Assembly (NCBI GenBank): GCA_016928995.1
Contig: JAFGJS010000001.1
Coordinates: 1-11,957 of the forward strand
DNA: 11,957 bases
Direction of reading: 5' to 3'
Source: Candidatus Sumerlaeota bacterium
Lineage (GTDB): Bacteria > Sumerlaeota > Sumerlaeia > JAFGJS01
Shown: one piece after another, positions 5,066 through 11,957 of the stretch
Numbering within the stretch: position 1 is the stretch's first letter
How the letters are laid out: every line of letters begins with the position of its first letter
Notes under the pieces: model-generated
What the model saw: the letters and a program-made list of their open reading frames with translations, nothing else
The model's database searches: none
Told to the model about the DNA's origin: nothing
Made by a program: the position numbers and the translations under genes

Positions 5066-6166
5066 TTAGATCACGCCGCCTTCTCGTTTCATGCGTAGGT
5101 GTTGCTCCTTTTTTGCTGCCTGCTTGGAGACGTTTATAATAAGCGTATTATTTTCGATCTTCTTGGTCATGCTGTCCGGGTTGATGTCATCGGGCAATGT
5201 GGCCATATGATTGAATGATTGCTGACTTTCATTGCGGCTGACGACATTGCCCTGAGCGTCCTTGATCTCGTTGATGTTTTTCTTTTCACCGCTCACCATC
5301 AACATGTTGCCCTGGAGTTTGACGTTGACATTTTGCGGTTGTCCGCCGGTCTGAATGCGAATCTCGTAATGATCGCCTTTGTCTTCGAGATTCATGCTGC
5401 TCATCGGCATCCCGTTGCCCTGCGAGCCGAAGAAACTGTGCATATGGGGCTGCTGAGTGTTGCCCAAAGACGGCGGAAGCGTCTGGCCGATACCCCATCC
5501 GGCCGGCGGCTGCATGCCGTTCGGCGACATGGGCATGGCGCCGAAATCCTGCAGCATTTCTCTCCGCATTTGCTCGAAAAACCGGTCAAATTCGTCCGGA
5601 GCATGCAGCGGCGCCCAACCGCCGCCCATATGCGGATTTTGCATCGCGCTCTCGATCATGGATCGAAGCTGCGCCGCCTCGTTATCAGGCGCGTTAAACT
5701 CAATAATCAGTCCGTTGCTCGTATCCTGATTGCCAGCCGCTGTAGTGCTTGTGAAAACCGGCTGACCGTTGACCATGAGCATCGGCGGCGGCAATGGCGC
5801 GCGAGTCTGAGTTTGCATCTGCTCCAAGGCCTTCCGCACTTCCGTGTCCATCACATGCAGCATCGCGGCAGTCGGCGTGGAGTGCGGATCCTCGATGTGC
5901 GATTCCCGGATGACGTGAGCGACTCCCGTCTCTGGATCGTATAGAATCTGAGCGTTGGCCGTGTTGCCTTCGAGCGGAATGACATGCTCATTGCCGTCCT
6001 TGTCAACATAACGAATCGCGCCAGACAGGTCGATCTCACGGCTGGCTTTCGGCGCTTGGCTTTGCTGATCGTCCTTCGCCGGCAGATGAATCTTGGCGGC
6101 ATGCAATGCAGTCGTGCCCGTAGCGAACGCCGCAAATGTCGCAATGAGCCAAACTCGGATTTTCAT
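5066..6166 (-). CDS. Exported alpha-crystallin/Hsp20-like protein
   Basis: The 366-residue product begins with a Sec-type signal peptide (MKIRVWLIATFAAFATG, probable cleavage after ALHA at residue 23), so it should act in the periplasm or outside the cell. Residues 24-180 are unlike any family I know and include a proline-rich patch at 124-129 and a second beta-rich stretch. Residues 191-210 (DEFDRFFEQMRREM) resemble the helix before the alpha-crystallin domain of many small heat-shock proteins. A Met/Pro/Gly/Gln-rich linker follows. An Hsp20-like domain occupies about 259-347, with YEIRIQTGG, MLMVSGEKK, LPDDINPDSM and a terminal TLIINV strand. The usual G-V-L of the last conserved motif is replaced by N-T-L. 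Small heat-shock proteins are normally cytosolic and about 150 residues, so the export and length are unusual. A holdase role in the envelope is inference. It has its own sigma-54 type promoter and terminator. Confidence 0.85.
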   Translation of the reverse strand: MKIRVWLIATFAAFATGTTALHAAKIHLPAKDDQQSQAPKASREIDLSGAIRYVDKDGNEHVIPLEGNTANAQILYDPETGVAHVIRESHIEDPHSTPTAAMLHVMDTEVRKALEQMQTQTRAPLPPPMLMVNGQPVFTSTTAAGNQDTSNGLIIEFNAPDNEAAQLRSMIESAMQNPHMGGGWAPLHAPDEFDRFFEQMRREMLQDFGAMPMSPNGMQPPAGWGIGQTLPPSLGNTQQPHMHSFFGSQGNGMPMSSMNLEDKGDHYEIRIQTGGQPQNVNVKLQGNMLMVSGEKKNINEIKDAQGNVVSRNESQQSFNHMATLPDDINPDSMTKKIENNTLIINVSKQAAKKEQHLRMKREGGVI

Positions 6167-6939: not shown

Positions 6940-9489
6940 ATGCCTCGAACAAAGGGAAAGCCAGGCGAGGGGACGAAAACGGACGAGAAAAACGACGCGA
7001 AGGCGAACGCCAAAACAAGCGCCAAAAACGGCGCAAGGGCGAACGCGAAGACGAACGCGAGTAAAAGCGCAAAGCCTGACGCAAAAGCGCAAAACGCTCC
7101 ACAGAACGAAGAATTGCCGCGCGAGGTTGAAGCTTTGGCCGAAGCGCTCGTATTGCTGGAACCGTCCGATGTCAGCGCGATGGCTGAAGCCCATACGTCA
7201 TTGCAGAAAATCGTCGAGTCGCTTAAACAGGAAAAACAGGAACGCTTTGCGGAAGCGACCCATGCCGCCGCACAACTCGTGGAGAAAATCATTCTGGCGG
7301 ACACCGACGAGCCAGACGCGGCGATGGCGACTTTATTGCGCTTCGTGGCGGCTTTGCAGGCGGCCATATGCAATGGGCGCGAAGAGGCGGAATGCGATTT
7401 CCCCGTGGAACTGATGCCCGGAGGAGCCGTGGAACAACCAGCGCCTGAGCCTGAGCCTGAACCGGAGGCGCCGAAGGCGAAAAGCGGCCTGGAGGATTCC
7501 ACGACGCAGCTGCCGCCCGCCGCTCCGCAAGCGGCGCCGGTGAAAAAGGTTGAAGCCGCAGACGCACGACAGGCGCAGACCGAGACGACAGGGCCAAGCG
7601 ACGCGCAAACCGCATTGGAAGCGGATCGCGAGTTGCTCAGTGAGTTCCTGAGCGGCGAAGCGCAGGAGCATCTGGAAGCTGCGGACATGGGTTTGCTGGA
7701 ACTGGAGACAGATCCGAGCTTGGAAGAAGCGCTGAACGCAGTTTTCCGGGCGTTTCATACCATCAAAGGCGTCGCGGGATTTCTGGGTTTGACGCAGATC
7801 GGTTCGCTGGCGCACGAGGCGGAGAATCTGCTCGATTCGGCGCGCAAGGGAGAACTGGTCCTGAAGGGAGCGGCGATCGACGCGACATTCGACGCGGTGG
7901 ACGGCTTGAAAAAGTTGATCACCGAAGTCAGCGAGGCGCTGGCTACCGGAGTGGCGGCGCCAGCCAACGCGGCGTTCGGGCTGTTGATCGAGCGAATCCA
8001 GGCGGCCGGTTCCGGCGAGGCGCTGGAAGAAGACCAGGGCGAACCGGAAGGGGTTCCCGGCCGGCGGCTGGGAGAAATTCTGGTCGAATCGGGAAGCGCG
8101 ACAAATGAGCAAGTGGAGTCGGCCTTGCAGCGTCAGCGCGAATCCGACGAGCATCCGAAGCTGGGTTCGGTGTTGGCGCGCGATGAAAAAGTTCCCGCAA
8201 GAGACGTGGCGCATGCGCTGCGCAGCCAGCAGCAAGCCTCGGCGGTGAAGGAAAACGTGAAGGTGGACGCGGAGCGCCTCGACCGGCTGCTCGATACAAT
8301 CGGAGAATTGGTCATCGTGGAGGCGATGGTGACGCAGTCGCCGGAGATGAAAGGGATCGCCTCGGCGGAACTCGCGCGGCACCTGAGCCAGTTGAATAAA
8401 ATCACGCGGGAACTGCAGGAGATGGGGATCCCGCTGCGTATGATTCCGCTACGCTCGACGTTTCAAAAGATGGCGCGGATGGTGCGCGACCTTTCAAAAA
8501 AAGCCGGCAAACGCGTCGAGTTCTGCATGTCCGGCGAGGACACGGAACTGGACAAGTCGGTCGTGGATAAAATCGGCGATCCGCTGGTGCATATGATCCG
8601 CAACGCTGTGGATCACGGGCTGGAGTCCGATCCGGCGGAACGCCGGGCGGCAGGCAAATCGGAGACGGGGCGCGTGGAGCTCCGCGCGTACCATAAGGGC
8701 GGCGGGATCTACATCGAGATCGAAGATGACGGGCGCGGTTTGAACAAGGATGCGATCCTGGCCAAGGCGCGCGACCGCAAGTTGATCAATGACGGTGACA
8801 GTCTGAGCGAACGGGAAATTTTCAATCTGATCTTCGAGCCGGGATTCTCCACGGCGAAAAAAATCACGGAAGTCTCGGGCCGCGGCGTGGGGATGGACGT
8901 CGTGCGGCGGAACATCGAAGCCCTGCGCGGGCAAGTGGATATTCAATCCAAGCCGGGAAAAGGCAGCGTCTTCAGCATCCGCCTTCCGCTGACGTTGGCG
9001 ATCATCGACGGCATGGTCGTGCGCGCCGGACAGGAACGATATATCATCCCGACACTTTCCGTGGTCCGCTCGATCCGGCCCGAAAAGCAACACAGAACTC
9101 AAATTCTCTCGAAGGGCGAACTGCTATCGGTGCAAGGAGAGCTGATCCCGCTGTTCCGGTTGGGCGAGTTATTCGGCATCGCCGAAGCGGAGAGCGAACT
9201 GACGAACGCGATCGCGATCATCGTCGAGGAAGAAAACCGGCGCGTGGCGATCTTAGCGGACGAACTGCTCGGACAGCAGCAAATCGTGATCAAAAGCCTC
9301 GGCGAGGCGATGAAAGGTATTCCGGGAATCGCCGGAGGAGCGATCATGCCCGACGGAAAGGTCGGACTGATCGTCGATGTCAGCGGCCTGACGCGCTTCG
9401 CCCTGACGGAAAACAAGGAAGACGAAATCGACACAAAAACATATACAGACCAAGAAGCGCCGGCGGAGCTGAGCGCCGGCAAAGCATAG
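6940..9489 (+). CDS. cheA: Chemotaxis histidine kinase CheA with MshEN-like insert
   Basis: This 849-residue kinase would phosphorylate itself from ATP under receptor control and pass phosphate to CheY/CheB-type regulators; none is in the window. Domains in order: a Lys/Ala/Asn-rich tail (about 5-55); an all-helical unrecognised segment (about 57-155); a Pro/Glu linker; the HPt domain (about 230-340) with phospho-accepting H273 in FHTIKG; a tandem 24-residue MshEN-like motif (376-399 and 407-430); P3 dimerisation (about 435-500); the HATPase P4 with N box N555-AVDHG, G1 DDGRG (596-600), FEPGFS (632-637) and G2 GRGVGMD (647-653); and a CheW-like P5 (about 690-835). All key kinase residues are present. 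The ATG at 6940 has AAGGA 8 bp upstream. It is longer than typical CheA (about 650-700) because of the N-terminal extension and the insert. cheW follows after 13 bp. Confidence 0.96.
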   Translation: MPRTKGKPGEGTKTDEKNDAKANAKTSAKNGARANAKTNASKSAKPDAKAQNAPQNEELPREVEALAEALVLLEPSDVSAMAEAHTSLQKIVESLKQEKQERFAEATHAAAQLVEKIILADTDEPDAAMATLLRFVAALQAAICNGREEAECDFPVELMPGGAVEQPAPEPEPEPEAPKAKSGLEDSTTQLPPAAPQAAPVKKVEAADARQAQTETTGPSDAQTALEADRELLSEFLSGEAQEHLEAADMGLLELETDPSLEEALNAVFRAFHTIKGVAGFLGLTQIGSLAHEAENLLDSARKGELVLKGAAIDATFDAVDGLKKLITEVSEALATGVAAPANAAFGLLIERIQAAGSGEALEEDQGEPEGVPGRRLGEILVESGSATNEQVESALQRQRESDEHPKLGSVLARDEKVPARDVAHALRSQQQASAVKENVKVDAERLDRLLDTIGELVIVEAMVTQSPEMKGIASAELARHLSQLNKITRELQEMGIPLRMIPLRSTFQKMARMVRDLSKKAGKRVEFCMSGEDTELDKSVVDKIGDPLVHMIRNAVDHGLESDPAERRAAGKSETGRVELRAYHKGGGIYIEIEDDGRGLNKDAILAKARDRKLINDGDSLSEREIFNLIFEPGFSTAKKITEVSGRGVGMDVVRRNIEALRGQVDIQSKPGKGSVFSIRLPLTLAIIDGMVVRAGQERYIIPTLSVVRSIRPEKQHRTQILSKGELLSVQGELIPLFRLGELFGIAEAESELTNAIAIIVEEENRRVAILADELLGQQQIVIKSLGEAMKGIPGIAGGAIMPDGKVGLIVDVSGLTRFALTENKEDEIDTKTYTDQEAPAELSAGKA

Positions 9490-9502: not shown

Positions 9503-10006
9503 ATGGCGGAAGAAACAATCATGGCCGCGACGGCCAAGGCGGGCAAGTACCTGACTTTCACTCTGGCCGAGGAGGAATACGGCCTGGAGATCCTCAAGGT
9601 CCAGGAGATCATTGGAATGATGAACGTCACGCGCGTGCCCAAGACGCCCGAGTTCGTGCGCGGCGTGATTAATCTGCGCGGCAAGGTCATCCCGGTCGTC
9701 GACTTGCGGCTGAAGTTCGGTCTTGCCGAACAGGACGAAACGGAAAAGACCTGCATCATCGTGGTGCAGGTGGCTCAGGGCGACCACCGCACGATCATGG
9801 GGATCATCGTGGACCAGGTCTCCGAAGTGATGGATATCGGCGGAGATCAGATCGAACCGGTGCCATCCTTCGGCTCGAGCGTGGACACCACGTTCATCCT
9901 GGGAATGGGCAAGATCGGCTCGAAAGTGCTGACCATGCTCGACATCGACAAAGTGCTGTCCGCCGGCGAAACCGCCGCCATGCGCGACGCCGCCCAAACC
10001 GCGTAA
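9503..10006 (+). CDS. cheW: Chemotaxis coupling protein CheW
   Basis: The 167-residue product is a single CheW domain: YLTFTLAEEEYGLEILKVQEI, then RVPKTPEFVRGVINLRGKVIPVVDL, the GIIVDQVSEVMDI strand pair and the terminal VLTMLDIDKVL. It has the normal CheW length. It bridges receptors and the P5 domain of CheA at the inner face of the membrane. The start at 9503 is preceded by AGGAGG (9488-9493) overlapping the cheA stop, with a 9 bp spacing, so cheA and cheW are almost certainly one operon. A second in-frame ATG lies a few codons downstream but has no comparable ribosome site. The receptor gene follows after about 200 bp. Confidence 0.96.
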   Translation: MAEETIMAATAKAGKYLTFTLAEEEYGLEILKVQEIIGMMNVTRVPKTPEFVRGVINLRGKVIPVVDLRLKFGLAEQDETEKTCIIVVQVAQGDHRTIMGIIVDQVSEVMDIGGDQIEPVPSFGSSVDTTFILGMGKIGSKVLTMLDIDKVLSAGETAAMRDAAQTA

Positions 10007-10209: not shown

Positions 10210-11957
10210 ATGTTAAAAAACATGTCCGCAGGAAAAAAAATCGGACTCGGTTTCGGCGCCTTGATGGCCTTGCTGACCGTCGTAGCCGTGATTGGATACA
10301 CAAGCATGAGTAACATGCTCAACAACACACATCATACCATTAAGATGAACGAATTGGATAAGCTGCTGGTCGAGAAGGAAGTCGATCATCTGAATTGGGC
10401 CAATGCTGTGTCTGAATTGCTGACAAATGAGAACGTCACCGAGCTGAAGGTGCAGACCGATGATCATCAATGCGCGTTCGGCAAATGGCTCTACGGCGAA
10501 GAACGCGTGCAGACAGAGCAGGCGATGCCCGAATTGGCCTCCATCCTCAAGGAAATCGAACCTGTGCATGAGCGCTTGCACGCATCGGCGATCCATATCG
10601 GGGAAAGCTTCCACCAGGCCGATCCAGAGTTGCCGGGGGTACTGGCGGCGCGGCAGATCGATCATTTAAACTGGGCCAACGCCGTGCGCGATGCATTCCT
10701 CAACAAATCCAACACGCTCGAAGTCCAGACCGACGCCACAAAATGCGCACTGGGCCAATGGCTCGAAAGCGAACAGGCGAAAAAGGCCTATGCCAATGGC
10801 GACGCCGAATTTAAACGAGCCTGGGACGAGATGCTCACGGTGCACCGGCAGCTGCACGCCTCCGTGATCGACGTCAAAAAAAATCTGGCCTTCGACCAGG
10901 TGGAACAAGCCCGCCAGACCAGACAGCGTACGCTGAACGAACTCGACAAAATTTCCCAAAGCCTCTTTCAAGAACTGGATCAGGCGATGGAAACCTTCGT
11001 CGATCCGGCCAAGGCAAAAGCAGAGAAAGCCAAGGACATCGAGTCGATGACGAAATGGAGCGCGATCGACATGGCCTTGAATGAGGACATCATCGAGCCG
11101 CTTCTTTCGCTGCGTATTTTACTGAACAATACGTATGAGAGCAAGCAGAAGAGCGCCTATAAAGAAGCCTATAACGAAATTCTAGCCAGCGTCGATGAAT
11201 GGGCTAAACTGCTTCAAAACGACTCCGCCATGGAAAAAGTCGCAGACAGCATTCGCAAGCATCTGGAAGACTGGAACGCACAGGTCATAGTATACTTCGG
11301 CGCCGCGGACGAAGAGGAGAAATATCTCGCAACGCTGGATACGGCTAGAAAAACTTTCCAGGATACGATGCTGCCCGCTTTGGAGCAAACGCTGGCGCAT
11401 CTGCATACCTTGACCGAAACAGCGCAGAATAATCTGAATGGCATGGCTGAGGCCAACCGGGTCTTCAATGAAGTCACAAAGCCATCCCTCACCCAAACAC
11501 AGGAACTGCTCACAAAGGCGATCGACCTGGTTACTGCTAACGTTGAAAAAGAAAATGAAGGCATCTTCATCACCGGCAAGCGCTCGAAGGCTCTGGTCGG
11601 CGTCATTTCATTTGCGGCGCTCTTGATCGGCATAATACTGGCTTACTTTATCGCTCGCAGCATCACCCGCGCACTGAAGCAGATCATCGAAGGCTTGCGG
11701 CTCGGGGCGGATCAGGTCACTTCGGCTTCGGGGCAGGTGGCGCAGTCGAGCCAGTCGATGGCCGAGGGCGCCAGCGAACAGGCTTCCAGCTTGGAGGAAA
11801 TCTCCTCCTCGCTCGAGGAAATGGCCTCCATGACCCGGCAGAACGCCGACAACTCACGGCAGGTGAACAAGATGGCCACCGAAGCCCGAACCTCCACCGA
11901 CCAGGGCCGCGAGGCCATGGCCCGCATGTCCGAGGCGATCGGCAAGATCAAGGCCTC
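10210..11957 (+). CDS. Methyl-accepting chemotaxis protein with tandem CZB domains, 3' end outside the window
   Basis: The frame is open from the ATG at 10210 to the right edge (582 codons). TM1 is at about residues 9-31. Two consecutive CZB (chemoreceptor zinc-binding) domains follow. The first has ligand set H60 (HLNWANAV), C88 (CAFGKW), H120 and H124 (HERLH). The second has H152, C179 (CALGQW), H212 and H216 (HRQLH). A further helical stretch of about 240 residues leads to TM2 (about 461-482). A short HAMP-like segment and the start of the MCP signalling domain come next (SMAEGASEQASSLEEISSSLEEM). CZB domains bind zinc through three His and one Cys and are known to sense zinc or hypochlorous acid; the ligand here is inferred. 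Between TM1 and TM2 the CZB domains would face the periplasm, whereas many known CZB domains are cytoplasmic and C-terminal. The signalling tip and any methylation pentapeptide are not in view. The position after cheA-cheW suggests it feeds that kinase. Confidence 0.93.
   Translation, partial: MLKNMSAGKKIGLGFGALMALLTVVAVIGYTSMSNMLNNTHHTIKMNELDKLLVEKEVDHLNWANAVSELLTNENVTELKVQTDDHQCAFGKWLYGEERVQTEQAMPELASILKEIEPVHERLHASAIHIGESFHQADPELPGVLAARQIDHLNWANAVRDAFLNKSNTLEVQTDATKCALGQWLESEQAKKAYANGDAEFKRAWDEMLTVHRQLHASVIDVKKNLAFDQVEQARQTRQRTLNELDKISQSLFQELDQAMETFVDPAKAKAEKAKDIESMTKWSAIDMALNEDIIEPLLSLRILLNNTYESKQKSAYKEAYNEILASVDEWAKLLQNDSAMEKVADSIRKHLEDWNAQVIVYFGAADEEEKYLATLDTARKTFQDTMLPALEQTLAHLHTLTETAQNNLNGMAEANRVFNEVTKPSLTQTQELLTKAIDLVTANVEKENEGIFITGKRSKALVGVISFAALLIGIILAYFIARSITRALKQIIEGLRLGADQVTSASGQVAQSSQSMAEGASEQASSLEEISSSLEEMASMTRQNADNSRQVNKMATEARTSTDQGREAMARMSEAIGKIKA

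Follow-up and report, generated by a model that had tools for sequence, protein, structure and literature searches.

The window, the whole stretch of DNA analysed here (11957 bases), is the entire contig C55. It contains a cheA-cheW pair and a gene for a methyl-accepting chemotaxis protein (MCP) that runs to the contig end, all on the same strand (Table 1). Because the window is a whole contig, the 3' end of the receptor gene is missing. The start of the MCP signalling domain resembles the cytoplasmic parts of MCPs and of HAMP-less relatives that carry PF00015, and the rest lies past the contig end. The gap between cheW and the receptor gene was searched for terminators and promoters, and a single weak promoter-like site was found. 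A cheW gene lies on the same strand within 400 bp at 27 of the searched loci that encode relatives of the receptor. The genome (about 92% completeness) encodes flagellins and two other complete receptors; in a profile search it gave no CZB matches besides the two in the window receptor. Elsewhere in the window, adjacent genes encoding DUF5343 and Swt1-like HEPN proteins (positions 55-1151, where GC is low, 0.42) give matches to PDC-M34, a candidate defence system (M34A, E = 9.9e-38; M34B, E = 1.1e-39). The minus strand at 5066-6166 encodes an Hsp20 domain protein whose apparent signal peptide and lengthy extension at the N-terminus make it perhaps an exported small heat-shock protein.

Table 1. 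Features of the chemotaxis genes and of the receptor in the window (aa, residues of the receptor).
Feature	Position	Strand	Basis and remarks
CheA kinase	6940..9489	+	Pfam Hpt, H-kinase_dim, HATPase_c, CheW
CheW, upstream neighbour of the receptor gene	9503..10006	+	Pfam CheW, E = 1e-38
Methyl-accepting chemotaxis protein	10210..11957	+	Open reading frame and homology of the receptor cytoplasmic part; 582 readable residues, signalling domain cut by the contig end
TM1, aa 11-29	10240..10296	+	Mean hydropathy 2.35; sub-threshold Pfam 4HB_MCP_1 match of model positions 1-38 to aa 4-41
CZB domain 1 (PF13682)	10387..10599	+	56.9 bits; ligands H60, C88, H120, H124
CZB domain 2 (PF13682)	10663..10875	+	51.1 bits; ligands H152, C179, H212, H216
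Helical insert of about 145 residues, aa 229-372	10894..11325	+	Common to L007, L009 and L011; resembles sensor regions of the CZB-free receptors L087, L088 and L093
Predicted long helix, aa 339-501, TM2 within	11224..11712	+	AlphaFold2 model, mean pLDDT 92
TM2, aa 463-481	11596..11652	+	Mean hydropathy 2.65
Beginning of the cytoplasmic signalling part, which follows TM2 with no HAMP between	11653..11957	+	No HAMP match; 36-residue offset to conserved motif

The receptor as a whole matches the CZB family with E = 1.2e-27, and each of its two domains scores above the curated Pfam cut-off for PF13682 (29.4 bits). The original prediction of two full CZB domains at 10381-10860 holds, with the second match extending 15 bases further; the eight ligands that it named, three His and one Cys per domain, are all in place. 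The two copies are identical at 31 of 80 positions of the aligned stretch. C88 and C179 are the sole cysteines among the readable residues, and each is followed by Ala (CAFGKWL and CALGQWL). Only 23 of 502 window residues are invariant across 34 aligned two-CZB sensors from several phyla, and these include all eight ligands. The chance of this would be about 5e-12 if all residues were equal, which is untrue, so the figure is a rough guide only. Peptides by which relatives were in part retrieved span H60 and H152, so that these two columns are less independent, and the other six ligands lie outside them. Among the relatives, almost all copies have the complete ligand set; the exceptions are one copy in which Leu replaces the first His and three copies that are cut or gapped at that position. 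The pair of ligand cysteines are the only sensor cysteines in 29 of 39 short two-CZB relatives, and Ala or Gly predominates among relatives after the ligand Cys.

The same ligand order and probably the same fold are found in the N-terminal CZB of Escherichia coli DgcZ (PDB 3t9o), whose H22, C52, H79 and H83 align to the CZB family model; DgcZ differs from the window receptor in being a cytosolic diguanylate cyclase with one CZB. Helicobacter pylori TlpD and Salmonella McpA share with the window receptor a three-His, one-Cys CZB that controls a chemoreceptor, but theirs is cytosolic, C-terminal and present once per chain. The CZB ligand in TlpD and DgcZ is Zn(II) (PMC12871147; PMC8262984), and by analogy we infer that each CZB of the window receptor holds one Zn(II).

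Both CZBs were expected to lie between TM1 and TM2, outside the cytoplasm, and the hydropathy profile agrees: no third segment approaches the values of these two. It was envisaged at the outset that TM1 might not be a membrane segment; this was looked at by hydropathy and not found. Across the family the fraction of Lys and Arg is 0.24 before TM1 and 0.06 after it, and two transmembrane segments are present in nearly all relatives having both ends.

AlphaFold2 models were made of the window sensor (mean pLDDT 92.2) and of the three-CZB receptor L060 (mean pLDDT 85.6), and the expected CZB helices are visible in each CZB of both. Residues 224-347 of the L060 model superimpose on the DgcZ CZB with a Z score of 12.9 (116 of 120 residues, rmsd 2.6 Å), and Foldseek gives this match a probability of 1.00 and a TMt of 0.67; taken alone, Foldseek results were mostly coiled coils. 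The window model has the right CZB helix pattern, and 3t9o is not among the matches listed for it, a listing that does not demonstrate that the match is absent. A sequence search of the PDB with the CZB pair gave no useful match. The gap between the last CZB and TM2 is about 56-64 residues in most single-CZB receptors, 94 in double and 130 in triple ones, so that the segment towards TM2 is about 36 residues longer per added CZB; single-CZB L077, with a gap of 89, stands outside this series. A helix of about 36 residues measures about 54 Å, close to the height of a four-helix bundle. Each further module would therefore have joined the stack on its outer side, with the return helix lengthening each time. 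Together, the spacing and the helix lengths in the models suggest that the domains are stacked along one long helix.

The insert that follows the second CZB is 27-29% identical to that of the other long-type receptors, and AlphaFold2 predicts helices within and around it at residues 228-273, 277-307 and 313-334. Because it resembles sensor regions of receptors devoid of CZB, modules appear to have been swapped. Residues 139-407 of the window model also resemble the stacked helical modules of the HBM (McpS, 2yfa/2yfb), PilJ and TorS sensor domains (Z about 14-15), a weak likeness since unrelated helical proteins reach equal scores. It is one of fold only, as no Pfam HBM match is listed for the window protein or the insert; we know of no zinc sites in the HBM, PilJ or TorS sensor domains. 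On the other side of TM2, a Pfam search of the window protein for HAMP (E <= 1) gave no match. TM2 is separated from a conserved motif by 36 residues in the window receptor and most relatives and by at least 76 in the others, an offset that fits a HAMP; Pfam detects HAMP in L056 and L016. Judged by these sequence features, most relatives, the window receptor included, are without HAMP.

Scanning 84,980 species with the window sensor sequence gave 79 related loci. Most lie in Desulfobacterota (Thermodesulfobacteriota) or Planctomycetota; one or a few each were found in Krumholzibacteriota, Lentisphaerota, Kiritimatiellota, Auribacterota, Tharpellota, Spirochaetota, Pseudomonadota, Myxococcota and Aminicenantes. 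The scan favours multi-copy receptors because long matches rank first. A tally that covers the window and loci from a further search comprises 25 three-CZB receptors, 43 short tandem pairs, 5 long tandems (the window receptor, counted twice, L007, L009 and L011), 8 of a CZB-x-CZB type and 7 single-CZB receptors. In L076 (3992-6439), x is a single Cache domain and all three domains lie between TM1 and TM2; the same CZB-Cache-CZB order between TM1 and TM2 occurs at loci similar to L076. In an independent profile search of the order of Desulfospira (Desulfobacterota), 35 of 116 genomes had CZBs, 17 of these 35 having tandem or triple CZBs in one frame (table read manually); these copies are mostly 276 bases (92 residues) apart, and a spacing of about 92 residues between copies also holds for the related receptors as a set. 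In a Krumholzibacteriia bacterium (L065, 1676-7636), three consecutive genes encode tandem-CZB receptors.

A tree built from individual CZB copies unites all first copies of related receptors (91/95), except that of the distant L016_1651; third CZBs join the second CZBs of the CZB-x-CZB type (100/94), and second copies are spread. As copies largely sort by position, the duplications look old. A recent duplication within the window gene was considered and is not supported, since its copies mostly group with same-position copies from other phyla (support is moderate and columns are few). A tree of whole sensors places the window receptor with two from Planctomycetota, L008 with two CZBs and L013 with three (100/99), and the other three long-type receptors belong to Desulfobacteraceae or Desulfobacterales, L011 being from Desulfospira joergensenii. 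Repeated changes of copy number and of inserts follow from these placements. Horizontal acquisition of the window receptor is hinted at, not proven, by the rarity of CZB in the class of the window organism (2 of 39 genomes), the Planctomycetota affiliation of its nearest sensor relatives and a GC content of 0.51-0.54, compared with about 0.59-0.62 for cheA-cheW.

The original prediction regarded CZBs as best known as single, cytoplasmic modules. This puts it too strongly: tandem CZBs are common among the relatives, and periplasmic ones were already known, PMC8262984 (mBio 2021) grouping about 10,000 CZB sequences, of which a small class of 384 are putatively periplasmic with Ala or a variable residue after the Cys. 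Arg at this position is enriched in most cytosolic groups. The periplasmic group resembles the window receptor in its N-terminal CZB between TM1 and TM2 and its Ala (non-Arg) after the Cys; the two or three copies, Cache or helical inserts and loss of HAMP seen here go unmentioned in the accessible part of that paper. No description of two or three CZBs in one chain was found in the open-licence literature. Periplasmic CZB receptors are a known kind, and the arrays of one to three copies that have inserts and lack HAMP appear to be a so far undescribed variant. The set of receptors with one to three CZBs is widespread, mostly in sediment-type bacteria, and apparently undescribed.

The sequence shows two complete CZBs with conserved ligand sets between two membrane segments, encoded beside cheA and cheW. 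We consider it fairly probable that the window gene encodes a membrane chemoreceptor whose two extracytoplasmic CZBs bind zinc and are stacked along one long helix. The CZBs would stack outward from the membrane, CZB1 nearest, and the long helix would return along the stack, cross the membrane as TM2 and lead directly into the signalling rod with no HAMP relay between. With less certainty, zinc entering or leaving either site would shift the long helix and so change CheA activity; the cell might thereby steer by free outside zinc, which may track redox or sulfide. The receptor set as a whole probably reports free zinc, or redox acting through zinc, on the outside of the cell, and zinc sensing is the function that the CZB family best supports. 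Cytosolic CZBs bind zinc with subfemtomolar to femtomolar affinity, perhaps too tightly for sensing outside zinc, which counts against this proposal.

Such tight affinity would suit a structural role, in which the CZBs are stable stacked blocks held by zinc and the true ligand binds elsewhere, for example to the helical insert or to the Cache of relatives. A Cache is indeed added in some relatives, and the extra helical module of the window receptor occurs in CZB-free receptors. We nevertheless find this reading unlikely: CZBs are the sole recognised sensor domain in most relatives, and metastable zinc sites coupled to signalling were reported for TlpD (PMC12871147). Direct sensing of oxidants, whereby HOCl or others would oxidise the zinc-bound outside Cys so that zinc leaves and the receptor signals, has been shown for the cytosolic CZBs of TlpD and DgcZ (PMC8262984; PMC12871147), and the ligand Cys is conserved here. 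It is nonetheless rather improbable for the window receptor. HOCl in particular is not favoured, because most relatives come from sulfate-reducer and sediment lineages, where it is unexpected, and because the Arg after the Cys, which forms a salt bridge in TlpD (PMC12871147), is replaced by Ala; a 2026 preprint (PMC13370339) also argues that CZB responses depend on the availability of zinc rather than on direct oxidation of the Cys. Finally, a cytoplasmic location of the CZBs, TM1 being no membrane segment, would agree with most CZBs described so far being cytosolic (PMC8262984) and is very improbable given the strong transmembrane pair in the window receptor and nearly all relatives, the charge asymmetry about TM1 and the periplasmic type of residue after the Cys.

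Returning to the sensing of outside zinc, the stimulus of CZBs is disputed between oxidants, zinc itself and zinc as a redox messenger; that zinc conveys outside redox was proposed in the same 2026 preprint. The present receptors could separate these options, because extracytoplasmic CZBs meet outside zinc or oxidants directly, without import as a confounder. The series of one, two and three copies is, moreover, a natural experiment on the way in which repetition of ligand sites determines chemoreceptor sensitivity. Tentatively, the receptors may form a zinc ladder of one to three extracytoplasmic CZBs stacked on one long helix that runs directly into the signalling rod with no HAMP between; copy number would then tune the response to free zinc, or to zinc-linked redox, in anoxic sediments, either its range or its steepness. 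A different arrangement was observed in Desulfospira joergensenii, where one receptor (L106, 544-2574) has an extracytoplasmic CZB (aa 61-135) together with a cytoplasmic C-terminal one (aa 575-641) and possibly compares zinc inside with zinc outside the cell.
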